IMG/VR virus record: IMGVR_UViG_3300045999_005937
Span: 1 to 24,322 of that record
DNA: 24,322 nucleotides
DNA from: a virus
Strand: one strand, 5' to 3'
The notes under the pieces were generated by a model. It was given only the letters and a program-made list of their open reading frames with translations, did no database searches and had not been told where the DNA came from. Below, in pieces: positions 954 to 24,322 of this stretch. The number at the start of each line of letters is the position of its first letter. Within the stretch, counting starts at the first letter, position 1. The position numbers were made by a program, and so were the translations under genes.

Positions 954-1160
954 TACAGCTATTTAGTTTTAGTCAGTGAGCTCAGCTTCTAGTTGAGCGG
1001 ATCCATGTATCAGCTAGCGCATTGTCGCTTGGTAGGTATCAGGATCAAGTTAGATCATTTGTGATCACAGGCTGTAGATTCTCTCCTCAAGCTTCACAGT
1101 TTGATGAGGGATTCACTCCCTCTTTGTTGTTAGCTACCAGCCATGTAGCTGGTGAATGTT

Positions 1161-1478
1161 ATGAACATCAAGACCAACAATCAACCACGCCAGCCTATGT
1201 CTGGCCTGACCCTTGATCTCTTTGTCGGTGACAAGCAAGCTGCCAAGATTCGACAGCAGTTTGATTACCTAACTGACACTGAGTTCGAGGATGAATCATT
1301 CATTATGTACAAAGGTTATGTGTACGCAATGTCTGACTTCATGCGTATCGAACAGGATTCTACTGGTGATCTAGCACAGTCTGGCTGGCATGGTTACAGC
1401 TCAGATTCATTCTTTAGCGGTGTGTTAATCAAACTGTGTGATGACGGAGATGTCATCATGGGCCGCTATTGCTCCTGA
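1161..1478 (+). CDS. Hypothetical small phage protein
   Basis: This is the first convincing gene of the window, 105 residues from the ATG at 1161. An internal ATG at 1197 (residue 13) starts a better-looking protein at MSGLTLDLF and may be the true start. The product is acidic, with a middle part around FIMYKGYVYAMSDFMR and an aromatic, Gly-rich end (GWHGYSSDSFF, then VIMGRYC). I do not recognise a family. It heads the train of small plus-strand genes and lies just after the repeat-rich left region, so it is probably an early gene. Codon use looks like that of its neighbours. Confidence 0.65.
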   Translation: MNIKTNNQPRQPMSGLTLDLFVGDKQAAKIRQQFDYLTDTEFEDESFIMYKGYVYAMSDFMRIEQDSTGDLAQSGWHGYSSDSFFSGVLIKLCDDGDVIMGRYCS

Positions 1479-1483
1479 CTAAC

Positions 1484-1512
1484 TGTAACTAACCCAACGC
1501 AATCTGATCATG
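1484..1512 (+). promoter_or_regulatory. Shared leader: CTAACCCAA to TGATCATG
   Basis: The bases before the gene at 1510 read TGTAACTAACCCAACGCAATC followed within a few bases by the start. Near-copies lie before the starts at 1714 and 2125: CTAACCCAAT, a short C/G-rich spacer, then the ATG. The three leaders share sequence although the genes do not, so they look like a duplicated gene-start module, perhaps for translation or transcript processing. Confidence 0.5.
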
Positions 1513-1680
1513 AACATCCTCCAGTACAAAGTTGTGTCTTATCTTGTATCTACTGATGGACAACCCTATGTGCATGGTTATTACGATACGCAAGATGTTG
1601 CCGAACGTGTAGCCAACAACTACAACGTTATGTTTAATAACGGCGGAGGCAAACTGTACGCAAAGGTAGAGAAAGCCTAA
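1510..1680 (+). CDS. Hypothetical protein, 56 residues
   Basis: A 56-residue open frame starting MNILQYKVVSYLVSTDGQ and ending KLYAKVEKA. The start has no Shine-Dalgarno sequence but carries the ATC-ATG context seen in several neighbours, and the shared CTAACCCAA leader precedes it. The pattern of two short strands, a helix (DTQDVAERVANNYN) and a final strand suggests a small alpha/beta fold. I know no function. The spacing and the absence of overlap with other frames support a real gene. Confidence 0.6.
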   Translation: MNILQYKVVSYLVSTDGQPYVHGYYDTQDVAERVANNYNVMFNNGGGKLYAKVEKA

Positions 1681-1713
1681 TTGTACCTAACCCAATCCCA
1701 TCGCAATCTAACC

Positions 1714-5771: not shown

Positions 5772-6089
5772 ATGAAACGTTTGCTGTTCTTGCTGCCTTT
5801 TGCTGTCCTCAATCCTCTCGAAGCTCGTACAGTTACAGCTACCGTTTATCACGAATGGTACCACAACAGAGTCACATACTGCGGTCAAACATACCGACAC
5901 TGGGGTATTAGCGCAGCACATCCCTGGTTACCTTGCGGCACGAAAGTTCGTGTCACCCATGGCAATAGAACGCTAACTGTACCAATACAGGATCGCTGCG
6001 AATGCGACTCGATTGATCTCAGTGCAGGCGCAGCATACCGTTTAGGCGTACCCTTAAATGACATACGCAAGGTACAGATCAGCTACTAA
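5772..6089 (+). CDS. Secreted RlpA-like double-psi beta-barrel protein
   Basis: A 105-residue protein with a clear signal peptide (MKRLLFLLPFAVLNPLEA, cleavage likely near residue 19) and then an RlpA-like double-psi beta-barrel: TATVYHEWYHN at the first strand, WGISAAHPWLPCGTKVRVTH in the middle (the family's TAAH-x-LPFGT block), and PIQDRCECDSIDLSAGAAYRLG near the end (the family's DRGP...IDLS block, with both Asp kept). RlpA proteins bind or cleave peptidoglycan glycan strands, so a role in host wall remodelling or lysis is plausible. The extra Cys pairs suggest disulphides. Whether it is catalytic is uncertain. Confidence 0.75.
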   Translation: MKRLLFLLPFAVLNPLEARTVTATVYHEWYHNRVTYCGQTYRHWGISAAHPWLPCGTKVRVTHGNRTLTVPIQDRCECDSIDLSAGAAYRLGVPLNDIRKVQISY

Positions 6090-6678
6090 TCCCTTGACAC
6101 ACTTTACAATTGCACTCAACAGCATCTAGATAATTTAGGGGTTTACCTATCTTATCTAAACCAAACTCGACAACTTTATCGTTGTACGCACGAGCGGCTT
6201 CGAGTTTGCAAGTGAAGTAACCGAGATGTGTGCTTTTGCGCTCGTTTATCAGCCGCGTTTTCCATCTTCCACGCTGCCTATCCCAACTCGCTCCTATAAC
6301 GCCACTGCTGTTGTTAGTCATTATCCTTCGATTATGGCTCTGCAGGGAACTATTGCCAAGTCTTAAATTGTTCGCATTATTGTTTAACGGATTCCTATCT
6401 TTATGATCTACCTCAAGCTCACAGGGATCAATCTTATTTACCATGAAATAAATTATTCTTGACGCTCTATAGTTCTGACCGTCAGCTTTAACGTACCAGT
6501 CAAACCTCCCATCACATGGTTTAACTATCGTACCGGCCACGCTTTCAGCTAAATGCCCGCCCCTGGTTACTTTACGCACCAATCCCGAATGCTTCCCGAA
6601 CTGAGACTCCGCAATCGGTACAACTTCAAACAGTTCGTTTAGCCGCTCAAGCGGCGGCAGTGGTAAAGTCTTAGGCAT
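6079..6678 (-). CDS. HNH homing endonuclease with AP2 domain
   Basis: A 199-residue protein on the opposite strand to its neighbours. Residues about 75-118 form an HNH_3-type nuclease: VDHKDRNPLNNNANNLRLG with Asp91-His92 and a later HN pair (Ser-His115-Asn). Residues 125-174 form an AP2 DNA-binding domain (SSGVIGASWDRQRGRWKTRL, then LGYFTCKLEAARAYN). A CNCKVC motif ends the protein. This architecture is typical of free-standing phage homing endonucleases that cut DNA to spread their own gene. The start is taken at ATG 6678; a GTG at 6723 would add 15 residues and lies inside a hairpin. Its 3' end overlaps the RlpA-like gene by 11 bases, tail to tail, so it probably inserted here as a unit. 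Confidence 0.9.
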   Translation of the reverse strand: MPKTLPLPPLERLNELFEVVPIAESQFGKHSGLVRKVTRGGHLAESVAGTIVKPCDGRFDWYVKADGQNYRASRIIYFMVNKIDPCELEVDHKDRNPLNNNANNLRLGNSSLQSHNRRIMTNNSSGVIGASWDRQRGRWKTRLINERKSTHLGYFTCKLEAARAYNDKVVEFGLDKIGKPLNYLDAVECNCKVCQGISS

Positions 6679-6704
6679 CGGCCTGGTGCTACAGGTTGAT
6701 CGTG

Positions 6705-6741
6705 CCCCAGGGTGTTGACGCACCGCTGGGGTTTAAATTTT
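6705..6741 (+). terminator. Hairpin with T-rich tail upstream of the HNH gene
   Basis: CCCCAG-GGTG (6705-6714), loop TTGACG, CACC, one bulged G, and CTGGGG (6726-6731) form a stem of about ten pairs, followed on the plus strand by TTTAAATTTTA. It could stop plus-strand antisense transcription through the HNH gene, or fold as the 5' leader of the minus-strand HNH transcript. The orientation is uncertain. Confidence 0.5.
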
Positions 6742-9550: not shown

Positions 9551-9759
9551 TGGACAGAAAAGTTTATGTGTTCAAGACACACAACGGCTACTTGTCCGAC
9601 ATTGATCATTACACGCACGATGCAGCACGAGCAGTATCGTTCGTCGATCTTGACTCAGCGGTCACACGTCTGGCTGCAGTCAGTGGGGTAATCAACCAAC
9701 CGATCTCAATCGAAGAAGTTTCACTTCCATTCCCTCTTCCTTTTCCTAAGCAAATCTGA
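9550..9759 (+). CDS. Small protein between adaptor and ATPase genes
   Basis: A 69-residue protein starting MDRKVYVFKTHNGYLSDIDH, with DAARAVSFVDLDSAVTRLAA in the middle and a Pro-rich end (VSLPFPLPFPKQI). Both of its ends overlap neighbours as TGATG, so it is translationally locked into the MoxR/VWA unit, and GGAG about ten bases before its ATG may help initiation. The fold looks like strand-helix-strand. The function is unknown, but the fixed position implies that it works with the ATPase. Confidence 0.7.
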   Translation: MDRKVYVFKTHNGYLSDIDHYTHDAARAVSFVDLDSAVTRLAAVSGVINQPISIEEVSLPFPLPFPKQI

Positions 9760-10946
9760 TGAACGACCAACTCTTCGGCAAACTTCAAAACTTCCGTGGG
9801 GCACTCAACGCTGCCACGCTCGAACGCGAGCACGTTATCGACGGTCTGCTCGCCTCCGTTATCTCAAAACAGAACGCCTTCTTGCTGGGTGCTCCGGGTA
9901 CAGGCAAGAGTGATCTGGTTCGCAGTGTATGTAAAGGTATCAAGGGCGCCAATTACTTTGGTTACCTCCTGACACCTACGACTGATCCCAGCGAATTGTT
10001 TGGTCCCGTCGCAGTCACCAAACTACTTAAAGATGAGTACACACGCGATGTAGACGGTTACCTACCGTCCGCACACATTGGTTTCCTAGACGAACTGTTC
10101 CGCAGCTCATCGGCAATCCTTAACTCTCTTTTGTCGCTGCTGAACGAGCGGACGTTCAACAACGGTAACCAAGTGATCGAAACTCCCTTGCAGTCGATCA
10201 TTGCTGCAACAAACAGCTGGCCGCAAGAGGAGTCACTTCAGGCTTTCGCGGACCGCTTCTTGTTCCGCCCAACAGTAGAGATGCTGAAGAAACCAGTATC
10301 CAAACGGACACTGGATGAGTGGGCGCTGGGCATCGAAGATCGCCCGCAGGTTGGCGAGTTTCTGACACTTTCCGAACTGAAAGAGATTCAGGAAGCTGCG
10401 AAGAAGGTCAAAGTATCCGATGACTTTCTAGACAAGTTCAACTCAGTGTGGCAGATGCTCGCACAACGGAGCATCACGATCTCTGACCGCCGACGTGTTC
10501 AGATTCTTAAATTCCTCCGAGCATGGGCAATTGTCCAGGGCGATGAGGAGCTGTACCCTGAGCACATGCACAATAGTCTTGTACACATTGTGTACAACGA
10601 TCTAGAAGATCAAAGCACTATCATCGAGATTCTGGAGCAGGAAGTTCCCACGGCTGAGCGGTTGTTTGCTGATGCGAAGCGAGCGGCAAGCGGAATCATG
10701 ACCGAGTTTGCAGCACTACGCTCCAGACAGCAGCAGAACAGCATCGGCTCCCTTAACGATCTCGTCGTTCATCTCCGTAAATACCATAAGGATATGAACA
10801 CGGTCAGGGACAAAGTAGATGAGCTTCTTGATGGATCTCGCATTCGTATGAGCATGGCTGTCAGATCCAGAGCCGTTAAGCTCTCTCAAAACCTTCAGAA
10901 CAACTGCGACACAATCGCTCAAGCCCTCAACGAAATCACTCACTAA
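9759..10946 (+). CDS. RavA/MoxR-type AAA+ ATPase
   Basis: A 395-residue AAA+ ATPase. Walker A is GAPGTGKS (residues 44-51), Walker B is FLDE with Asp111-Glu112, and sensor 1 is Asn152 in AATNSW. The blocks ELFGPVAV, GYLPSAHIGFLDE, AILNSLLSLLNERTFNNG and ALADR-like FADRFLFR match E. coli RavA (EVFGP, GYLPEAEIVFLDE, AILNTLLTAINER, LYDRMLIR). RavA works as a hexameric remodelling ATPase with the VWA protein ViaA, whose counterpart is the next gene. A CobS-type porphyrin chelatase reading is less likely. It starts in a TGATG overlap and ends two bases before the VWA gene. The C-terminal third is a long helical region (about 230-395). Confidence 0.85.
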   Translation: MNDQLFGKLQNFRGALNAATLEREHVIDGLLASVISKQNAFLLGAPGTGKSDLVRSVCKGIKGANYFGYLLTPTTDPSELFGPVAVTKLLKDEYTRDVDGYLPSAHIGFLDELFRSSSAILNSLLSLLNERTFNNGNQVIETPLQSIIAATNSWPQEESLQAFADRFLFRPTVEMLKKPVSKRTLDEWALGIEDRPQVGEFLTLSELKEIQEAAKKVKVSDDFLDKFNSVWQMLAQRSITISDRRRVQILKFLRAWAIVQGDEELYPEHMHNSLVHIVYNDLEDQSTIIEILEQEVPTAERLFADAKRAASGIMTEFAALRSRQQQNSIGSLNDLVVHLRKYHKDMNTVRDKVDELLDGSRIRMSMAVRSRAVKLSQNLQNNCDTIAQALNEITH

Positions 10947-10948
10947 CC

Positions 10949-12499
10949 ATGAATCTCCAGAAGAACTCTGAGTTTGTTCGTCTTGTAAATAACGAGCCGC
11001 TAACCCTAGTGTGCTCCGCTCTCGCAGACTTCCTTTGGGAAGATTTTGTCCGCGACACAAAGCCTAACGTTACCTATCTCGTTAACACTTACAACATCAA
11101 ACAACTCTCTAGGTTCGGTAAGGAGGTATTCGAGCGTTTATACAGTGCTGACGAAGTTAAGTGGCTAATCAGCGACGAAGACTTCGAGCAATACTTCAGG
11201 GCAATCTGTAACGGTGATACAACTAAAACACCTAAGGGCTACAAACCGGAGAACGCTGTCTGGTATTCGATCATGGGAGATCTTTCCCAGGCTGCTGCGT
11301 GGCCCACGCTGATCCAACGCTGCGTGGGCGAGCAGTTCAACTCCGGGAACAATGCAGTGCGCATCCTCAACGAAATCTCAAAAGTGATTGAGGAAGCAAT
11401 CCAGCAGAACATGTTCGATGTTCAGCTGCTGGTGGGCTCCGGTGATCAATTGCAGGAGCTCCGGGACCAGTACAACAAAGCTGTACAGAACGGAGACAAG
11501 GCTGCAGCGAACGAAGCTCGGATGCAGGGTAAGGAGTTGGGGCAGCGTATTCACGACGCGCTGCAGAATGTGAAGTCTCAAGTACAAGCAGAAGCGAACA
11601 CGATCGTCGATAAAGTTCTCGGCGAGAGTGACGAACAGAACGAAGATATCAGCAACCTGTTCGGCTCGATGCCCGGTAACGGAAAGATGCTGAGTGACCT
11701 ACAGGAAAAGAGGAATCTCGCTAACCGCTTGAGCAGGAACAGAACACTCAAGCAGATTGCTAAGAAACTCGGTGCTTTACGCCGGGTATGGACTGAGAGG
11801 AAACGAGCCAAGCCTGCGAAAGCTAACTACGAAGCGGTAACAGGTGCGAAGTTCAGTGACAGCGTGATCAACGCCTTCCCCACGGAGCTTGCGCTGGCTG
11901 GCTCGAAGGAAGGTCAAGCCCTGTTTGCTCTCAAGTATTCGCAGAAAACGATCCTCACCAAAGACTACACAGCATCCAGAACGGACTTGGGGCGCGGTCC
12001 TGTAATCATGTACGTCGATGTGTCGGGGTCGATGCACGGAGATCTGGAGCTTTGGAGCAAGGCAATTGCCTTAGTTATCTCTGAGCAGGCGCTGACTGAC
12101 AAGCGCTCTGTGCACATCCATCTGTTTGATACGGTTGTGGGTCACAGTGTTGAGGTAAAAAGTGGCACACCAAATACAAAGGAACTGATTGACTTCGTTG
12201 CGGGATGGACGCTGGGTGGGGGCACAAGCTTCAACGCCGTGCTAGCCCACGTGGTGAGTCAGAAGGAGAACTTGAAAAATTCCGACATTCTGGTTCTCAC
12301 CGACGGGAATTCGGAGGCAAGCCCCACTTGGATTTCCAGGGTAGACAGTTTGAAGCAGGAAACCGGCGCACAGATAACTACAGTTTGTCTGGATATGTCT
12401 GTGCCTGAAGTTTGCAAACGGTTCAGCGATGAGACTTACTCTGTAGACACATCGAATAACATCGATTCAATCGATGTAATTCAAAAGTGTATCCGATGA
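10949..12499 (+). CDS. ViaA-type von Willebrand A protein
   Basis: A 516-residue protein with an N-terminal helical region and a C-terminal VWA domain from about residue 345. The metal-ion-dependent adhesion site is complete: Asp357-x-Ser359-x-Ser361 in MYVDVSGSMHG, Thr426 in GGGTSF, and Asp452 in VLTDGNSE. The stretch WSKAIALVISEQALTDKRSV then HIHLFDT parallels ViaA (AKAFCLALMRIALAENR, then IMLFST). The middle has charged, Gln-rich helices (residues about 170-240) likely to form a coiled coil. In the known pair the VWA protein regulates and targets the RavA ATPase. Here it is the last gene of the coupled unit, and it ends just before a strong AAGGAG ribosome site of a new gene. Confidence 0.85.
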   Translation: MNLQKNSEFVRLVNNEPLTLVCSALADFLWEDFVRDTKPNVTYLVNTYNIKQLSRFGKEVFERLYSADEVKWLISDEDFEQYFRAICNGDTTKTPKGYKPENAVWYSIMGDLSQAAAWPTLIQRCVGEQFNSGNNAVRILNEISKVIEEAIQQNMFDVQLLVGSGDQLQELRDQYNKAVQNGDKAAANEARMQGKELGQRIHDALQNVKSQVQAEANTIVDKVLGESDEQNEDISNLFGSMPGNGKMLSDLQEKRNLANRLSRNRTLKQIAKKLGALRRVWTERKRAKPAKANYEAVTGAKFSDSVINAFPTELALAGSKEGQALFALKYSQKTILTKDYTASRTDLGRGPVIMYVDVSGSMHGDLELWSKAIALVISEQALTDKRSVHIHLFDTVVGHSVEVKSGTPNTKELIDFVAGWTLGGGTSFNAVLAHVVSQKENLKNSDILVLTDGNSEASPTWISRVDSLKQETGAQITTVCLDMSVPEVCKRFSDETYSVDTSNNIDSIDVIQKCIR

Positions 12500-14026: not shown

Positions 14027-15922
14027 ATGCAGGTTCGTTACATCCAAACAGCCGAACAGTTCAAGGAAGTTCTGCCTGAATTGAAGCAGATTCCGAAAAT
14101 GTGCTTGGACTGCGAAACAACGGGCCTGCAAGCGACAATCGCAAAGCTTCGCTTACTTCAGCTCTGTGATGCCACGCCGGAGATTGAAGATCGTACTGTC
14201 TACGTCTTAGATCTCTTTAAGTTCAAACCAAACGAAGAGCTTAAGGAACTTATAGAGTCCCGTGCCATGCTCCTGGCGCACAACATGAACTTCGACTTTC
14301 AGTTCCTCCTGTCCATCGGGATCGATTTTAAAAACAAGATCTTCGACACGTACGTCGCAGAGCGCGTCCTTCGTTCCGGTTTTAAGGAGAAACGGGTCAG
14401 CCCTAAGTCTCAGACTACGTACTTTACAGATGTCAGCTGCAGCCTGAAAGCTGTGGCAGAGCGCAGGCTCGAAATCGAAATCAGCAAGGAGCAGCAGAAA
14501 TCAGACTGGGGCGCCGAGGAACTCGACATCGAACAGATCAAGTACGCAGCAGGAGACGTCGACATCCTCCCACGCATCGCAGCATCCCAGTTGGCCGAAC
14601 TTAAAGAGGAGAACCTTCTATCAGTTTATGGGCTCGAATCTAAGTGCATTCGCCCCGTGGCAATGATGAGTTACAGCGGGTTCTGCGTCGATTTGACTAA
14701 GTTAAATAAGCTCAAAGCGTCTATCGAAGAGGAACTGGAACAGAAAACCGAACAGTTCGTTAAATCACTGGACGATAGACTTCCGGCAGATCTGAAACTT
14801 CCTCGGGGAATTGACGGAAAGGTCGCAGTCGGTAAGAGACCGAAAAAGGATTTTAATCCTGGATCCACGACGCAGGTTATTTCCGCCTTTACTGCTTGCG
14901 ATATCGAGCTGCCTAGAGACGCCAAGACGGAGAAGAAAACCCTCAACCAAATCGCTCTCGCAGAGTTCGACAGCGACGACCCCACGCTGAACCTTTATAG
15001 GCAACGTGTAAAGGTAGAAACAAAACTGGAGCACATCACCAAGCTGCTGGAAAATGTAAATCCAGTGACGCTGCGGATTCACTCTGGTTACAACCAGACA
15101 GGAGCAAACTCAGGACGCTTCACGAGCAACGGCGCCCCAAAGACAGCTAAAAAAGAAAAGAAAACAGTTTTTGCAGTCAACATTCAGCAAGTTCCTAGAG
15201 GTAAAGAATTCAGGGAGTGCTTCATCGCCGAGCCGGGATTCAAGCTGGTGATTTGCGACTGGGCTCAGATTGAACTACGACTCGGTGCGGAACTGATCAA
15301 CATCCCTCAGATGAGGCAGGCATTTAAAGATGACATCGATTTACACACAATGACTGCTAGTCTTATCTACAAGAAGGACTTACACGAAGTGTCTAAAGAT
15401 GAACGACAAGACGGTAAGACTCTGAACTTCGCCCTTTTATACGGAATGGGCTATAGAAAATACAAGACATACGCAGCACAGAGTGGAAAGATGTTGTCGT
15501 TGTCTGAAGCTAAGGTCGCACACGCTGCTTTCCACACTGCATACCCACGCCTGCGCATGTGGCACCGGGAGAGGGCGGCTCTGGTAGAAGACGGTTGGGC
15601 TTATGTACGTACAGCGTGCGGACGGCGCAGGCTTCTGAGTTACGACGACGCAACAATGATGTGTTCAGCTAACACCCTGATTCAGGGTAGTGGCGCAGAC
15701 ATATTGAAAATCGCCATTGCAGATCTAAACGAACACTTAAACGAAAATGTGCGGATGGTCGCGTGTGTGCACGACGAAATCGTACTCGAAGTACGAGAGG
15801 ATCTTGCTAATAAATACAAAGAGGTGCTGGAAACCGCCATGGTCCAGGCAGCTCAAAAAGTGTTAACATCTGTCCCAGCATCAGCAGATGCGAGTGTTGG
15901 TGATTCATGGGCCGCTAAATGA
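14027..15922 (+). CDS. polA-like: Family A DNA polymerase with 3'-5' exonuclease
   Basis: The replicative polymerase of the phage, 631 residues. The exonuclease domain has ExoI Asp28-x-Glu30 (CLDCETTGL), ExoII NMNFDFQF and ExoIII YAAGDVD, so proofreading is probably active. The polymerase domain has motif A DWAQIELR (Asp411), motif B RQDGKTLNFALLYG (Arg460, Lys464, Phe468, Tyr472) and motif C VHDE (582-584). The QGSGADILK helix before motif C is also kept. Phe468 is equivalent to E. coli Pol I Phe762; in phages this position correlates with lifestyle, Phe or Tyr pointing to virulent phages. No 5'-3' exonuclease domain is present, as is usual for phage enzymes. It starts just after a terminator, and its stop overlaps the next start (ATGA). 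Confidence 0.95.
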   Translation: MQVRYIQTAEQFKEVLPELKQIPKMCLDCETTGLQATIAKLRLLQLCDATPEIEDRTVYVLDLFKFKPNEELKELIESRAMLLAHNMNFDFQFLLSIGIDFKNKIFDTYVAERVLRSGFKEKRVSPKSQTTYFTDVSCSLKAVAERRLEIEISKEQQKSDWGAEELDIEQIKYAAGDVDILPRIAASQLAELKEENLLSVYGLESKCIRPVAMMSYSGFCVDLTKLNKLKASIEEELEQKTEQFVKSLDDRLPADLKLPRGIDGKVAVGKRPKKDFNPGSTTQVISAFTACDIELPRDAKTEKKTLNQIALAEFDSDDPTLNLYRQRVKVETKLEHITKLLENVNPVTLRIHSGYNQTGANSGRFTSNGAPKTAKKEKKTVFAVNIQQVPRGKEFRECFIAEPGFKLVICDWAQIELRLGAELINIPQMRQAFKDDIDLHTMTASLIYKKDLHEVSKDERQDGKTLNFALLYGMGYRKYKTYAAQSGKMLSLSEAKVAHAAFHTAYPRLRMWHRERAALVEDGWAYVRTACGRRRLLSYDDATMMCSANTLIQGSGADILKIAIADLNEHLNENVRMVACVHDEIVLEVREDLANKYKEVLETAMVQAAQKVLTSVPASADASVGDSWAAK

Positions 15923-18388: not shown

Positions 18389-19033
18389 ATGAACGTTTTT
18401 ATCCTCGGCCTTCGGGTCACAGCGAGCGCCGCTGAAGACGACGGAACTGTAAATGTACTTGCAGAGTCCCTGCCTTCAAACGAAAAACGCGTTGCGACGA
18501 GAGTTCAGCTGCTGCAGAAGGCTGACCACTACGTCGGAAAGCTTCTAAAGAAATTCGAAGAAGGGCAAACCATCCTGGCAATTGGTCCCACGCGGCCAAC
18601 TCCTGACGGTGTGCTGCAGATGCAACCGATGCTCGTGGTGACTGAGGAGAACTTCCAAGATCTCCTGGCAATCAACCTCTTTATCGCAACCGGCGGCTTG
18701 GGTCCCAAAGCTGAGGAGATGGAGATCGGCGACAACACCGTCACCAATAGGTCTCTCGCATGGCAGACCGAAGACCAAGAAACAGCGTGGATGAAGCTGT
18801 CGGCGTGGGGTGAGCTCTCGGCACAACTTGCTGAGCTAGCTCCCGGAACCCCAACGATTGGTGTGGGTAAAGTCTCAACCTCCGAGAAGGACGACAAGTC
18901 TTACCTCAACTACAATCTTGATAAGGTCCTTTACCTGCCTAAGGCATCACGTAAAGCACCTGTAAAAGCAGCCGATCCCGAAAAAGGGAAGGTTGCCGCT
19001 GCTGCTCTCGGTTCGATCGACTTTTCCCTCTGA
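18389..19033 (+). CDS. SSB-like single-stranded DNA-binding protein
   Basis: A 214-residue protein that resembles bacterial SSB in order of parts: a first strand MNVFILGLRVTASAA (SSB: MNxVxLxGRLTxDP), a long insert, then VTNRSLAWQTEDQETAWMKL, SAWGELSAQLAEL, and VGKVSTSEKDDKSYLNYNLD ending KVLYLP. These match the SSB pattern of W-x-x-V-A-W-G, A-E-x-L-x-K-G, V-x-G-x-x-x-x-x-Y and V-x-x-V-x-x-L. A linker rich in Lys and Ala and an end ALGSIDFSL follow. Bacterial SSBs end DDDIPF to recruit partners, and this end is related in kind. It is the first gene of a two-gene unit with the next, 12 bases apart. Confidence 0.7.
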   Translation: MNVFILGLRVTASAAEDDGTVNVLAESLPSNEKRVATRVQLLQKADHYVGKLLKKFEEGQTILAIGPTRPTPDGVLQMQPMLVVTEENFQDLLAINLFIATGGLGPKAEEMEIGDNTVTNRSLAWQTEDQETAWMKLSAWGELSAQLAELAPGTPTIGVGKVSTSEKDDKSYLNYNLDKVLYLPKASRKAPVKAADPEKGKVAAAALGSIDFSL

Positions 19034-19045
19034 TCCTCACTGACC

Positions 19046-19834
19046 ATGTTTATCGCTGGCGACTTTTCGGAATCCGAAATCCTCTGCAACATTCCGCCTC
19101 ACACCCTGCGTATCGATCTTCAAGCTCGCCGCTGGAAGTCTGACGTTGATCCCGACAACGCAATCGTAGACCGCAACGACAACGGTATCCCTATTGAGTT
19201 CATCCTCATCGGATTCACACCGTATTTTGGGAACCTCGGGATGCGTAATCAGGAAGAGTTCCTGCGTATTGCGTACATCGGTGTGTCACCCAACCACAGG
19301 TTGCTGCCTCCTCGGTGCATCACGACTTCGATGATCTCTGGCAAATCCAGTCAGAAAAATTTCATCGCTTACTTCCAAACTTTGTATAACAACCGCATTA
19401 ACTGTGCGTCTGTTATCACTTCAACCAAGTTCGTAACTCGCTCCTTTAACGAGCGTGATCCGATGACCGGTGCCGACGGGGCGAAGATCAACTTCAATTG
19501 CCTGGACTTCAGCGACCGTCCGGCTCAGAACGACGAAGAGGAAAAGCTCCTCAAAGACGTGTCCGAGTGGCTGGCTAAAGACGGAACAGGCATGGCGGCA
19601 AACGCACTGAAGAGCAGCATCCCTGGTGCTGATCTGATCGAACTGCCTTTGGGCAGCGATCACGCTGCGCTCAAAGCTGAGTTTGCGTCCACGCGGGGCC
19701 AAGCTCCTGAGCGTACGTTTGCTGCATCCGAACCCGAAGCCAAAGCTCTGAAGTCCGCTGAACCTCCTTCACCGAAAGCGAAGAAGGTAGAGCTAACCGA
19801 AGAACAAGCAAAAGCACTCGGAATTGATTTTTGA
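19046..19834 (+). CDS. SSB-unit partner protein with IDF end
   Basis: A 262-residue protein, probably translated together with the SSB-like gene. Residues 1-150 are rich in beta strands (ILCNIPPHTLRIDLQARRWK, IPIEFILIGFTPYFGNLG, then FLRIAYIGVSPNHRLLPPR), which would suit an OB-fold-like or other beta barrel domain. The last 110 residues are charged and flexible, with a Lys/Pro/Ala linker (EPPSPKAKKVELTEEQAK) and the terminus ALGIDF. That ending is shared with the neighbouring SSB-like protein (ALGSIDFSL), so both may bind the same partner. I do not recognise the family; a second ssDNA-binding protein or recombination mediator is a fair guess. A strong terminator follows. Confidence 0.7.
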   Translation: MFIAGDFSESEILCNIPPHTLRIDLQARRWKSDVDPDNAIVDRNDNGIPIEFILIGFTPYFGNLGMRNQEEFLRIAYIGVSPNHRLLPPRCITTSMISGKSSQKNFIAYFQTLYNNRINCASVITSTKFVTRSFNERDPMTGADGAKINFNCLDFSDRPAQNDEEEKLLKDVSEWLAKDGTGMAANALKSSIPGADLIELPLGSDHAALKAEFASTRGQAPERTFAASEPEAKALKSAEPPSPKAKKVELTEEQAKALGIDF

Positions 19835-19892: not shown

Positions 19893-20279
19893 TACCTCAA
19901 CTGCATCTCAACAAAAATAAAGCAAGACGGTGAATGGGTAAGCCTTTTCGTAGAGGACGTGGGCTACGCGTACAACGTGGGTCTTGCGATTCACAAGTCG
20001 AGACGTGCGACGAACGATTGGTATCGAAACCGCAAGAACAAAAGAGCTCGCTCAGTCCTTACAAAACAGGGACCTCGTTCACTCGCTGCCTTACGTACAG
20101 CACTAGACATATTAAAGATTCACTTAGAAGTTACGACCGCCAAACCCCTCATGATTATGCCCAGTACAAAGCGAACCGCTGCCTTAGCTAAGTACCTCAA
20201 ACGACTTGGGTTTAAGGAGTATCCACAGGGTGAGCAACCTCTCTACTTGCTAATAACTCGTCAAACGCCGGGAGAATAA
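19890..20279 (+). CDS. Hypothetical basic protein, 129 residues
   Basis: The start ATG is embedded in the tail of the preceding terminator, and no Shine-Dalgarno sequence is seen, so expression could depend on readthrough. The product has an N-terminal beta part (MYLNCISTKIKQDGEWVSLF), a basic middle (RNRKNKRARSVLTKQGPRSL) and a C-terminal alpha/beta part (ALAKYLKRLGFKEYPQGEQP), which faintly recalls the end of GNAT acetyltransferases but lacks the acetyl-CoA loop. No function is assigned. Its 3' end overlaps the minus-strand NblA-like gene by 68 bases, tail to tail. Confidence 0.6.
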   Translation: MYLNCISTKIKQDGEWVSLFVEDVGYAYNVGLAIHKSRRATNDWYRNRKNKRARSVLTKQGPRSLAALRTALDILKIHLEVTTAKPLMIMPSTKRTAALAKYLKRLGFKEYPQGEQPLYLLITRQTPGE

Positions 20280-20454
20280 CTTTGTTCCTCGCACACCACG
20301 AGGCGAGGCTGGAAAACAATCGTTTGTTGATCAGAGACTGCTTATGCACCATCTCAAGGATCTGGAGAAGCCCGTCCTTATCTAACTTCTTCGCATCCAT
20401 CATCACTCGATTATGTAAGAACTCCTGTTCTTGGCTCATCCAATCGAGTTGCAT
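20212..20454 (-). CDS. nblA-like: NblA-like phycobilisome-degradation adaptor (candidate)
   Basis: An 80-residue minus-strand protein. Its core, residues about 8-45, can be aligned without gaps to NblA: EQEF (NblA EQQF), a variable helix, KKLDKDGLLQIL (QQMSREQAQEFL), then LEMVHKQSLINKRLF (VELYRQMMVREAMY). NblA is a small helical dimer that brings phycobilisomes to the ClpC protease, and some cyanophages carry it. The sequence here has a C-terminal extension of about 30 residues (SWCARNKVILPAFDELL), so it is longer than most NblA proteins. The start ATG at 20454 follows GAGGGAG at 13 bases. The gene reads against its neighbours. The match is a pattern read by eye, so homology is likely but unproven. 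Confidence 0.55.
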   Translation of the reverse strand: MQLDWMSQEQEFLHNRVMMDAKKLDKDGLLQILEMVHKQSLINKRLFSSLASWCARNKVILPAFDELLASREVAHPVDTP

Positions 20455-20543: not shown

Positions 20544-21098
20544 ATGGCGTCGTTTTACACAATCCCTGAAGGCGTGACGCATCAACTGATTAAGCACAGT
20601 TACATCCAAGGCTCGATATTAGTCCCATATGATCCAAACGATACTCTGAGCAATCAGCTGCGAGCGCACAATTTTACAGTTACGACCAATAAGGACACTG
20701 ATAACTTGGTTAACCCGATCTGGTGGACAACCATGCGGGACAAACAGTACGACTGGGTTATCGCGAACACAACAGGCATTAACGATTACAGTGAGTACAT
20801 ACTCGACTACGGAATACAAGTAGCTAAGGAAGGCATAGCTGTACTCGATAGGCTCTCATTCATCGAACCAGTTACAAAGCGCAGGAACTTCCTGCTGTCG
20901 AACAAACTGTCGAACATGATCGTCTTATCGCCACGGCCTCGTTTCAGCTCGGTCAGTGCATCTCGTGATTCGGTCACAAGTTGCTGGTTTGTCTTCCAGC
21001 GTCCCGATAAGTGGATGGATGGCACACACGTGTCATACGCTGTAAATTGGGACGCAGCTCAAACGCTCCCGCCCCTCGATGACACCGCAATCAAGTAA
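20544..21098 (+). CDS. Degenerate DNA adenine methyltransferase-like protein
   Basis: A 184-residue protein from ATG 20544; the frame upstream has only a TTG start. It follows phage DNA N6-adenine methyltransferases in order: GSILVPYDPNDTLSNQL (where the family has EPxxGxG), YDWVIANTTGINDYSEYI (family DWVITNPPF), IQVAKEGIAVLDRLSFIEP, then RRNFLL and a terminal block LSPRPRFSSV then DSVTSCWFVFQRP. Both key motifs are lost: NPP[FYW] reads Asn75-Thr-Thr-Gly78, and the SAM-binding GxG reads PND. The rest of the fold is retained without frameshifts, so it is probably a catalytically dead relative with another role, such as DNA binding. It overlaps the next gene by 20 bases. Confidence 0.7.
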   Translation: MASFYTIPEGVTHQLIKHSYIQGSILVPYDPNDTLSNQLRAHNFTVTTNKDTDNLVNPIWWTTMRDKQYDWVIANTTGINDYSEYILDYGIQVAKEGIAVLDRLSFIEPVTKRRNFLLSNKLSNMIVLSPRPRFSSVSASRDSVTSCWFVFQRPDKWMDGTHVSYAVNWDAAQTLPPLDDTAIK

Positions 21099-21435
21099 AC
21101 TTGAGAAGTTCCAGCGTGCTGTGTGCGATAGGTTAGATAGGACAAATGAAAAACTCGATCGGGTTATTGCCCTACTGGTATCAGCACAGCTCCTCGAAGA
21201 GTGCGTGTCCCCTGAGGGAGAGATCCGCGATGCCCAACAGTGCGCGGAGATTGTTGTTGAAAGTTATTCAGCAGGTCTTTGCCTCACCGAAGAGTTGACG
21301 AACCGCACTCGGGATATCGAGTATCAAAAGTCCGAATTCTTTGTCGACGATGACGAAGATGAGGAAGAAGAGGATGATGATAGTGATGAAGATGATGGTC
21401 CTGATGAACCTCGACTTTTCTCGATGGCGTTCTGA
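21079..21435 (+). CDS. Protein with a very acidic C-terminal tail, 118 residues
   Basis: The first 85 residues are helical (KLEKFQRAVCDRLDRTNEKL, then RVIALLVSAQLLEECV and DAQQCAEIVVESYSAGLCL). The last 30 residues contain an almost pure Asp/Glu run (about residues 89-109) and end PRLFSMAF. Acidic tails with a terminal Phe occur in phage and bacterial ssDNA-binding proteins and in DNA mimics; here no OB-fold is seen, so DNA mimicry or protein recruitment are both open. The gene overlaps the methyltransferase-like gene by 20 bases, and a perfect hairpin follows its stop. Confidence 0.65.
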   Translation: MTPQSSKLEKFQRAVCDRLDRTNEKLDRVIALLVSAQLLEECVSPEGEIRDAQQCAEIVVESYSAGLCLTEELTNRTRDIEYQKSEFFVDDDEDEEEEDDDSDEDDGPDEPRLFSMAF

Positions 21436-21474: not shown

Positions 21475-22251
21475 GTGTCCCAAACACGACTTACTCTCAA
21501 CGGATTACGTCATTACAGATGTGATGGTGTTGATGTTCCGCTCCCTTCTGTAACAAGCGTTCTTTCTGCCACGCAGACCGAGGAAACGCGTAAGAAGCTA
21601 GCGCATTGGAACTTGGCAAATCCCGGTGCTGCTGATATGGCAGCAGAACGTGGTTCCTTTATCCATAACAGCGTAGAGAATCACATCAGAGGGCTGGCGG
21701 TAAGTCCCCCAGCTCAATACGCTCCGTATTGGAAAGACGTACCAGAAAAGGTAGACGAACTTCTAGAAGGTGGTCGCGTTCTGTGGAGTGAAAAGCCGTA
21801 CAACAAACCTGAGTGGCACAAATATGTCGGTGAAGATGGCGTCGGTCGTCTCCACTTTTACGATCCGATCAAAGCTCAGGGGTATGCCGGGTGCCCTGAC
21901 ATCATCTATCAGGATGGAAACGGCGAATTAATCCTGGGTGATTTCAAAACCAGCAACGGTCCGTACAGTTATAAATTCCCCAGCGCCAAAGTCCAGATGG
22001 AGGACAAGCTCCGAAAAGCTCTCGTATCTGGGGTTTTTAAATTGAAGAAAACTAAATTGCAGTTAGCTGCGTACGCAATTGCAGCAGAAACCTGCCTTGG
22101 AATCAAAATCAATAAAACTCAGATCATCGTAAGTACCGCAGTTCCTGAGTTTTCTGTTCAGGTATTTACTTTCGGACCAGAAGATCTGAAAAAAGACAAA
22201 GAAATGTGGTTTGAGGTCTTACGAAAGTTTTATGAGACTCGGCTTGCGTAG
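21475..22251 (+). CDS. PD-(D/E)XK exonuclease, RecB/Cas4-like
   Basis: A 258-residue nuclease with all landmarks of the RecB-like PD-(D/E)XK group: RGSFIHNSVENH with His64, GYAGCPDIIYQ with Asp142, LILGDFKTS with Asp156 and Lys158, and KLQLAAYAIA with Gln196 and Tyr200. The motifs GCPD...GDFK...QLAAY define the active site. Such enzymes act as 5'-3' or 3'-5' exonucleases in phage recombination or replication, or degrade host DNA. It lies in the replication block, directly upstream of primase-helicase, so a replication or recombination role is likely. The GTG start follows a perfect hairpin. There is no Cas4 four-cysteine cluster. Confidence 0.85.
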   Translation: MSQTRLTLNGLRHYRCDGVDVPLPSVTSVLSATQTEETRKKLAHWNLANPGAADMAAERGSFIHNSVENHIRGLAVSPPAQYAPYWKDVPEKVDELLEGGRVLWSEKPYNKPEWHKYVGEDGVGRLHFYDPIKAQGYAGCPDIIYQDGNGELILGDFKTSNGPYSYKFPSAKVQMEDKLRKALVSGVFKLKKTKLQLAAYAIAAETCLGIKINKTQIIVSTAVPEFSVQVFTFGPEDLKKDKEMWFEVLRKFYETRLA

Positions 22252-22266: not shown

Positions 22267-22319
22267 TTAAACCCCTGCACCCACGCGGGGATCCGTGGCA
22301 CAATGGCTCTGCGCAGGGG
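22267..22319 (+). promoter_or_regulatory. TTAAACCCC box, nested hairpins and TGG-CACAAT
   Basis: TTAAACCCC (22267-22275), CCCCTGC (22272-22278) and GCAGGGG (22313-22319) are exact inverted arms enclosing an inner CCACG/CGTGG stem (22281-22299). The extended -10-like TGG-CACAAT lies at 22296-22304 and the primase-helicase start is at 22324. A further GGGTTT/AAACCC hairpin lies at 22256-22274. The region is either the promoter of the primase-helicase or a structured leader, and the two could be combined. Confidence 0.5.
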
Positions 22320-22323
22320 AACC

Positions 22324-24322
22324 ATGCTTTTTTTCTACTCCAAAAATCAAAAAGTTCGTCAGTTTGTAAACCCCAAAACTGGAAAGATAAATCCAGGTGG
22401 AAACTTCAGATCATTCAACGAGAACTGGGAAGCGTCAGAAGGAGACGCCGAGACGATCGCCAAGGCTACAGCAGCCGGTGACGGCTTATGCGCGTGGCAT
22501 CTGGTAAACGGTAAAAGAGTTAAAGATTCGACCGGTACGATTAAAGCTGGTCTGGTGATTATCGACATTGATAATCAAGCAGATCATAAAGACGAGAACG
22601 GAAACAAGGTACAAAAGCAAGAGCTAACTGTAAAAGAAGCTCTGGACCTGGATATATGTAAAAAGTACCTTAGCTTTGCGTACTACTCGCCAAGTACGAC
22701 GCCGGAGTGGCCTCGCTTCCGTCTCGTTTTTGGACTCGAAAGACCCATTGTCGACGCTGATTTTTATCAGTGGTTCGTGCGGGAAATCGCTGAGCAGATC
22801 CCTGGATCAGACCGGCGAGCAACGCAGGCGGTCAACCTGTTTTACGGCGGTAAGTCCGAGCAAGATCTGATCTGCTGGTCACACAAATACATACCAGTTT
22901 CAAAAATCAATGAGGGGCTGCAGGCTTACAACCTGATTCCCAAGGAAGTCAAGCGAGACGACGACCCAGCAGAGGCGCTGGAGATCGACACCACGCTGGA
23001 CGGGATAGACGTCGGGAATCTGCTGAGTTCCTCTGTCAGATCGATGCTGGACGGGGCTCCGGTGGAAGACCGGTCGTTCAGCATGACGGTTGCCCTGAAG
23101 GAGCTGATCGGTTGGGCCAACTGGCTCGGGGCGAACGAGCTGCCAATTAAGCAGCGACCCCTTGACATGGCGCACCAAATATTCGAGAATATCTACGAGT
23201 ACGACCCAGCCCTCGATGGCAAGTTCAACCGGATCCTCGGCAGCATCTCCGACGCATCCACGCTGCTTCCCGCTGTCGCCATGGCGTCTGAGGAAGGCGA
23301 GTCCGCACCATGGAAAAAGATAAAATATGTAGACCGGGCTCTGTTTGACAGCAAGTGCCCCGAAGCGATCAAAGAACAAATCAAAGCCAAAAAACCAAAA
23401 CCGAGTAACTCGATCCTGAGCATCGAAGACTTTGAGATCGAAGCGACTCCTGAACCGACATCGACATTAACAGTCACAGAAGATTTCCCCGAAATGCCCG
23501 CCACCCCTCAAACGCCTGCGCAGTTAGTTCAAATTCAGAACAACAACAGGCAGTTTTCCGAAAACGACATCGCCGAGATCATCGTAAGCAATTACGGTGA
23601 TAGCTTCCTATTTGATTCGAGCCTGGACGAGTTCTTTACATACGACAATGACGAGGGTATCTGGTATCTGAACGACGAACAACATATCAAACGGCGAATC
23701 GTAAGCACGCTGGATACCTTCATCCAGGCTGGTGTCCTGCCACGCTACAACTCGGCAACCGTTAACTCGGTGTTCCAGCTGCTGAAAGCCAAGCTGCTGC
23801 GCTCAGTTCGCGGCGGTCGCTCCTCGATCTGGCAGACCAACCGGGGCAAGGTTGCTTTTGAGAACGGTGTGCTCGACACCAAGACTCTGGAGTTCAAGCC
23901 GGGAAATCATAAAGACATGTATTTCCAGACCAAGCTTGCTTTCCAATATGGCGAAGATCCCAAATGCCCGAAGTTCATCAACTGGTTGGAGTGGGCAGTT
24001 GGCGCCGACAAAGTGGTGATCATCCAGGCATTCTGCCGGGCTGTACTGACGGGATATACAACTGGAGAAAAGTTCCTGCATCTGATCGGTGCGGGTGGTT
24101 CCGGTAAGTCCACGCTGCAGCAGATTTTGATTGCTCTGGCTGGTTTCACAGGCACACATACATCTGACCTGGAAACGATTGAGACTAACCGCTTTGAAGC
24201 TCACAGCCTGATCGGTAAGCGCCTACTGCTCCTGACTGACGAAGCTTCATTCAGCAAGCGGCTCGACACGCTCAAGAAACTGACGTCAGCTTCTGACACT
24301 CTGCGGGCAGAGCGGAAGTTCT
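22324..24322 (+). CDS. Primase-helicase, D5/P4 type (runs off the window)
   Basis: The open frame from ATG 22324 has no stop before the window ends, so 666 residues are visible. The N-terminal primase-like domain has VIIDIDNQ with Asp81 and Asp83, the TTPEWPRFRLVF strand and a DRRATQAVNLFYGGKS block, in the order seen in archaeo-eukaryotic primases. A disordered linker follows (residues about 360-400). The C-terminal superfamily 3 helicase has a D5_N-type block (FENGVLDTKTLEF, FINWLEWAVGADK), Walker A GAGGSGKST (589-597) and Walker B LLLLTDEAS with Asp639-Glu640. The combined enzyme opens DNA and makes primers for the polymerase. The start is preferred because it follows the AGGGG and hairpin leader. 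The end with sensor motifs lies outside. Confidence 0.9.
   Translation, partial: MLFFYSKNQKVRQFVNPKTGKINPGGNFRSFNENWEASEGDAETIAKATAAGDGLCAWHLVNGKRVKDSTGTIKAGLVIIDIDNQADHKDENGNKVQKQELTVKEALDLDICKKYLSFAYYSPSTTPEWPRFRLVFGLERPIVDADFYQWFVREIAEQIPGSDRRATQAVNLFYGGKSEQDLICWSHKYIPVSKINEGLQAYNLIPKEVKRDDDPAEALEIDTTLDGIDVGNLLSSSVRSMLDGAPVEDRSFSMTVALKELIGWANWLGANELPIKQRPLDMAHQIFENIYEYDPALDGKFNRILGSISDASTLLPAVAMASEEGESAPWKKIKYVDRALFDSKCPEAIKEQIKAKKPKPSNSILSIEDFEIEATPEPTSTLTVTEDFPEMPATPQTPAQLVQIQNNNRQFSENDIAEIIVSNYGDSFLFDSSLDEFFTYDNDEGIWYLNDEQHIKRRIVSTLDTFIQAGVLPRYNSATVNSVFQLLKAKLLRSVRGGRSSIWQTNRGKVAFENGVLDTKTLEFKPGNHKDMYFQTKLAFQYGEDPKCPKFINWLEWAVGADKVVIIQAFCRAVLTGYTTGEKFLHLIGAGGSGKSTLQQILIALAGFTGTHTSDLETIETNRFEAHSLIGKRLLLLTDEASFSKRLDTLKKLTSASDTLRAERKF

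Follow-up and report, generated by a model that had tools for sequence, protein, structure and literature searches.

What does a phage do with a methyltransferase homologue that appears to have lost the means to methylate? Methyltransferase-like phage genes routinely receive the annotation DNA methyltransferase and are interpreted as serving anti-restriction. The question is raised by one such gene, here called PSEUDO1, at 20544–21098 (plus strand) of the stretch of DNA analysed (24,322 nucleotides; hereafter the window), whose source is a 24.3-kb virus record. A sequence-only reading had described it as an intact frame for a dead adenine methyltransferase, which could shield sites from host restriction or act as a decoy. 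The frame is indeed intact, running from an ATG over 184 amino acids without stops or frameshifts.

Family, motifs and predicted fold

In profile searches PSEUDO1 matched phrog_799, 'DNA methyltransferase' (E=1.3e-8), as did all 28 of the aligned family members (best 2e-10). This match, together with common conserved blocks, places it in the phrog_799 family of phage DNA methyltransferases. None of the 28 had a significant Pfam match, tblastn of the window protein against the INPHARED phages found nothing, and sequence searches of the PDB returned chance matches only. Twenty-odd phage proteins with an intact NPP[FY] motif are colinear with PSEUDO1 over its full length, in agreement with the earlier claim that family order is preserved.

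The two motifs said to be lost are indeed absent. Alignment places VPYDPND (residues 27–33; 20622–20642, plus strand) at the SAM-binding motif I, which reads EPCxGxG in active enzymes, and NTTG (residues 75–78; 20766–20777, plus strand) at the catalytic motif IV, which reads NPP[FY]. Functional N6-adenine DNA methyltransferases are characterised by [DNS]PP[YFW] at motif IV and by a GxG in motif I; the family here reads x-T-x-G at the former, and PSEUDO1 has VPYDP at the latter. Judged by these motifs, PSEUDO1 is very likely non-catalytic as an adenine methyltransferase.

Outside the two motifs, Y5, R103, L104, F106, E108, P109, R113, P130, R131, D142, T145 and W148 are invariant in active and inactive proteins alike. 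Five of them (R103 to P109) lie in a retained RLSFIEP block (20850–20870, plus strand) and D142, T145 and W148 lie in a retained DSVTSCW block (20967–20987, plus strand). Between these blocks, the alignment of active and inactive proteins shows a retained PRPRF block (20931–20945, plus strand), whose F134 probably corresponds to the aromatic position of motif VIII. The PRPRFSS...DSVTSCWFVF segment, previously described as an intact terminal block, is intact and occupies residues 130–151; it is not terminal, as 33 more residues follow to the C-terminus.

Structure prediction, which had been suggested as a check, supported a methyltransferase fold. An AlphaFold model from a 57-sequence alignment that included active homologues reached a pLDDT of 85.7 and a pTM of 0.83. 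The 28 inactive sequences alone gave a poor model (pLDDT 55.7), so the confident one leans on the active homologues. Built with their help, the model has the seven-stranded, Rossmann-like class I SAM-dependent fold with its elements in the right order; motif I forms the loop after beta1 (24–27) and motif IV directly follows strand 71–75, as in class I methyltransferases. Foldseek matched the model to methyltransferases including M.TaqI (TM about 0.52) and CamA, with E-values of ~2e-5 to 1e-4, and to phage methyltransferase-like proteins at a TM of about 0.7.

Clade-wide motif loss and selection

Scans of viral contigs yielded about 100 close relatives, and a wider set was assembled by searching with signature patterns that do not involve motif IV and then scanning all six frames. 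Among the resulting 125 distinct proteins, 22 carry NPP[FY] and 103 do not, one of the 103 being cut short ahead of the motif; the others have STMG, NTTG, STLG, ATTG, CTMG and similar sequences there, and no form intermediate between NPP[FY] and x-T-x-G was seen in the set. Likewise, a search of viral contigs for active orthologues or intermediates at the same genomic place found none. Deeper members, reached through contigs carrying the second degenerate methyltransferase described below, also lack NPP (SLLG, ITQG, ITHG). On the tree, a branch supported at 100/100 sets all inactive proteins apart; motif loss has a single origin, and whether NTTG is fixed in a clade, a question posed by the earlier reading, can be answered in the more general form x-T-x-G. 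One further relative, 70% identical, was found in GTDB on a 3.7-kb contig (L151, JAURMN010000017.1) of a Balneolales MAG. This is probably a mis-binned viral contig, and we do not accept Balneolales as the host on a single short MAG contig.

Purifying selection on the inactive proteins is strong: pairwise NG86 dN/dS has a median of 0.032 and a maximum of 0.125 over 86 pairs. Residues P28, D30, W60, W61 and G78 are unchanged among 96 distinct inactive sequences, and synonymous codons vary at the invariant Pro, Asp and Gly positions, with all four Gly codons used at G78. D30 and G78 stand where active enzymes have Ala and Phe. The W60–W61 pair (20721–20726, plus strand) is present in 96/96 and in the deeper members too; W60 is specific to the clade, and roughly half of the active relatives share W61. 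Position 75, where active relatives have the catalytic Asn, shows S, N, A, C, V, T and further residues; since it varies freely no side chain can be required there. The first Gly of motif I (G31) is Pro in 90 of the 96 and its Glu (E27) is V, A, I or C; the losses of motifs I and IV are fixed as far as the deepest members. From this pattern of conservation it follows that what the clade lost is precisely its SAM and catalytic motifs, where new residues became fixed, and that the remainder was retained. The sequence comparisons thus support a description of PSEUDO1 as apparently dead and selected.

The proposal that selection has kept the fold is borne out by the low dN/dS and by retention of the residues shared with active enzymes. 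Neutral decay, named as a possible refutation, was looked for and contradicted. We accordingly give practically no credence to a decaying pseudogene caught before loss of its frame: loss of the catalytic motifs is what such a gene would show, but the clade is deep, its dN/dS is about 0.03, synteny is kept, and the new invariant motif residues are encoded by varied synonymous codons. A still-active enzyme with an unorthodox motif, either x-T-x-G or the DPxW at 57–60, is highly improbable. The fold is retained and the [DN]-P-x-W at 57–60 vaguely resembles motif IV, but the freedom of position 75 and the missing GxG loop speak against activity. We rejected a motif IV relocated to DPIWW (57–61), P58 being S or L in 6/96 and the site not lying after beta4.

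A replication operon and a second degenerate methyltransferase

PSEUDO1 lies in an operon with the order polA, g15919, g17778, OB gene, 19046 gene, opposite-strand gene, PSEUDO1, acidic protein, exonuclease, primase. From polA to primase this order is kept over 9 kb in nearly all loci, including members that are 45–47% identical. At its head is a family A DNA polymerase (14027–15922, plus strand; Pfam E=1.2e-63). An OB/SSB-like gene (18389–19033, plus strand) is assigned from a weak Pfam SSB match (E=0.0015) and synteny. Its lineage-specific neighbour (19046–19834, plus strand), which has no family match and is 63–75% conserved in divergent relatives, is called SSB-like by position only. The small opposite-strand gene just upstream of PSEUDO1 (20212–20454, minus strand) also lacks a family match; it is present in 305/323 PSEUDO1-match loci, a count that includes overlapping loci, and retains 42–66% identity in divergent relatives.

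Immediately downstream, a conserved, acidic-tailed protein of 118 amino acids (21079–21435, plus strand) begins within the end of PSEUDO1. In nearly all members this gene's start overlaps or directly adjoins the stop of PSEUDO1, at offsets of -4 in 37, -1 in 14, -20 in 13 and -40 in 22 of 96. Family-wide, the tail usually ends in an aromatic residue, mostly Phe. SSB proteins carry C-terminal tails, and by analogy the acidic tail suggests a docking peptide. A PD-(D/E)XK exonuclease (21475–22251, plus strand; phrog_298 E=1.4e-24) and a D5_N primase/helicase identified by Pfam (22303–24321, plus strand, cut by the window end) follow. PSEUDO1 is present in 67/68 exonuclease loci, the remaining locus beginning at the exonuclease itself. 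This conserved and translationally coupled place is a better fit to a core replication function than to an accessory anti-restriction gene.

Elsewhere in the window, a RavA-like MoxR AAA+ ATPase and, immediately after it, a ViaA-like VWA protein (9759–12499, plus strand) are kept in relatives, with NCBIfam matches of 3e-40 and 7.6e-21, below the cut-offs. A putative HNH and AP2-like homing endonuclease (6079–6723, minus strand) and a putative RlpA-like double-psi beta-barrel protein with a signal peptide (5772–6089, plus strand) were recognised by eye.

Larger contigs of the lineage were searched for an intact methyltransferase. PF01555, PF02086, PF00145 and PF13649 gave no match in 15–16 of these (35–87 kb, possibly incomplete), nor was a second phrog_799 match present in those tested; as far as searched, this phage lineage appears to have no intact DNA methyltransferase of the tested families. 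Instead of an intact partner, the search for Dam (PF05869) yielded sub-threshold matches about 24 kb from PSEUDO1, to a second degenerate protein. This 192-amino-acid Dam/phrog_111 relative has YPPR in place of NPPY, and when aligned with relatives of catalytic type their Asn falls at its Tyr or Phe. The motif is [YF]PPR in 96/98 loci and FPPN in 2/98 (overlapping entries of the same contigs included). About 100 loci are known, for example 1129–1704 (minus strand) of contig L422; a conserved upstream neighbour accompanies the gene in 79/80, and its dN/dS is about 0.024, from only 8 pairs. The two methyltransferase homologues mostly occur together: of the contigs selected for PSEUDO1, 13/13 with a length of at least 52 kb have the second, and of those selected for the second, 7/9 with a length of at least 60 kb have PSEUDO1. 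The second gene is absent from the 24.3-kb window fragment itself.

Synechococcus phage S-EIV1 encodes a homologue of this second protein, AHV82250.1 (L530:2398–2991, minus strand), which has FPPN and is also degenerate. The gene upstream of it matches the conserved neighbour (E=6e-12), and the Dam-like gene and its partner are thus common to S-EIV1 and the window relatives; PSEUDO1 is absent from S-EIV1. The same phage is the nearest isolate match for the exonuclease (36% identity), and its primase match is 32%. Chenard et al. (2015) present S-EIV1 in their title, cited by PMC5332604, as a new and widespread cyanophage lineage. Because of these matches, and since S-EIV1 is a cyanophage, the window phage likely has a cyanobacterial host.

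Possible roles and known systems

Most likely, PSEUDO1 is an old enzyme that a family of uncultivated, probably cyanobacterial viruses has reused for a new, non-methylating job. We give an even chance to the more specific reading that it is kept as a non-catalytic accessory that contacts DNA within the phage replication or recombination complex. On this model, PSEUDO1 would have a small phage N6-adenine DNA methyltransferase as its ancestor, having kept the fold and lost the usual SAM binding and methylation; it would contact DNA, and a replication role best fits its operon setting. It would probably be made together with, and work with, the acidic-tailed product of the overlapping gene, and would act beside the SSB-like proteins, the exonuclease and the primase. 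The inactive proteins are near neutral, with a median pI of 6.5 versus 7.8 in active relatives, and strong DNA binding is therefore not favoured.

The shield or decoy first proposed, in which a dead methyltransferase binds recognition sites or mimics a methyltransferase subunit and so blocks host restriction, would suit the ancestry of PSEUDO1, its retained candidate DNA-contacting residues and the second degenerate methyltransferase in the same phages. We consider it distinctly unlikely, since the gene is conserved and syntenic in a replication operon, whereas counter-defence genes are typically patchy and fast-evolving, and GATC gives no sign of avoidance or protection. GATC had been thought frequent here and read as low Dam-type pressure. 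That argument fails: the first kilobase has 9 sites, and the whole window has 168, where base composition predicts 94 and trinucleotides predict 184 (z = -1.9). Such a density is unremarkable in this sequence and uninformative on Dam, and we rejected enrichment as a signal. It is unlikely, too, that the former SAM and catalytic cleft (P28, D30, W60–W61, G78) now binds another ligand or performs other chemistry. Invariance of these residues in the inactive clade, replacement of Ala and Phe by D30 and G78, and the placement, by methyltransferase topology, of P28/D30 in the loop that follows beta1 and of G78 in that following beta4 would all fit; against this, there is no candidate ligand, the invariance could reflect structural packing, and the loop positions derive from secondary structure rather than coordinates. 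In a broader version, which is rather unlikely, one widespread phage lineage would have made two unrelated adenine methyltransferases into conserved non-catalytic proteins, with the same cleft residues of PSEUDO1 serving a new replication ligand or contact. A METTL14-like pseudo-subunit of a heteromeric methyltransferase, dependent on an active phage or host partner, might be imagined from the second methyltransferase-fold protein in most of these phages, but that protein also lacks the catalytic Asn (YPPR) and no intact DNA methyltransferase was found among the families tested, making this very unlikely.

As it stands, a whole lineage keeps two methyltransferase-like proteins without the catalytic motif, one of them inside a replication operon. 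If the accessory reading of PSEUDO1 is true, phage replication machinery would use DNA-methyltransferase folds as building blocks, automatic annotation would mislabel this phage group, and S-EIV1 would offer a cultured system for studying the second protein.

The open-access literature contained no described phage DNA-methyltransferase pseudoenzyme. Methyltransferase folds have been reused in nucleic-acid roles in Mtf1 and METTL14. The mitochondrial transcription factor mtTFB is a further case (PMC2860759). For PSEUDO1, mtTFB/Mtf1 and METTL14 are analogies only, being eukaryotic, of RNA-methyltransferase ancestry and not homologous at this level. M.TaqI and CamA share the class I N6-methyltransferase fold with the PSEUDO1 model, as judged by Foldseek, but are catalytically active and have extra target-recognition domains. 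The second protein (PF05869/phrog_111) resembles PSEUDO1 in having lost the catalytic Asn under strong selection, and differs in belonging to another methyltransferase subfamily, about 24 kb away. Closest are the small phage N6-adenine methyltransferases of phrog_799, including K139 orf8, Rhizobium phage 16-3 p096, Salmonella phage SSE121 gp175 and proteins of rV5-type phages and of Listeria and Staphylococcus herelleviruses, which share with PSEUDO1 a colinear fold and blocks of the RLSFxEP, PRxxF and DSVTxxW type. All 8 of the 8 phrog_799-like proteins checked from isolated phages keep NPP[FY], and most keep EPCxGxG, whereas the window clade has neither.
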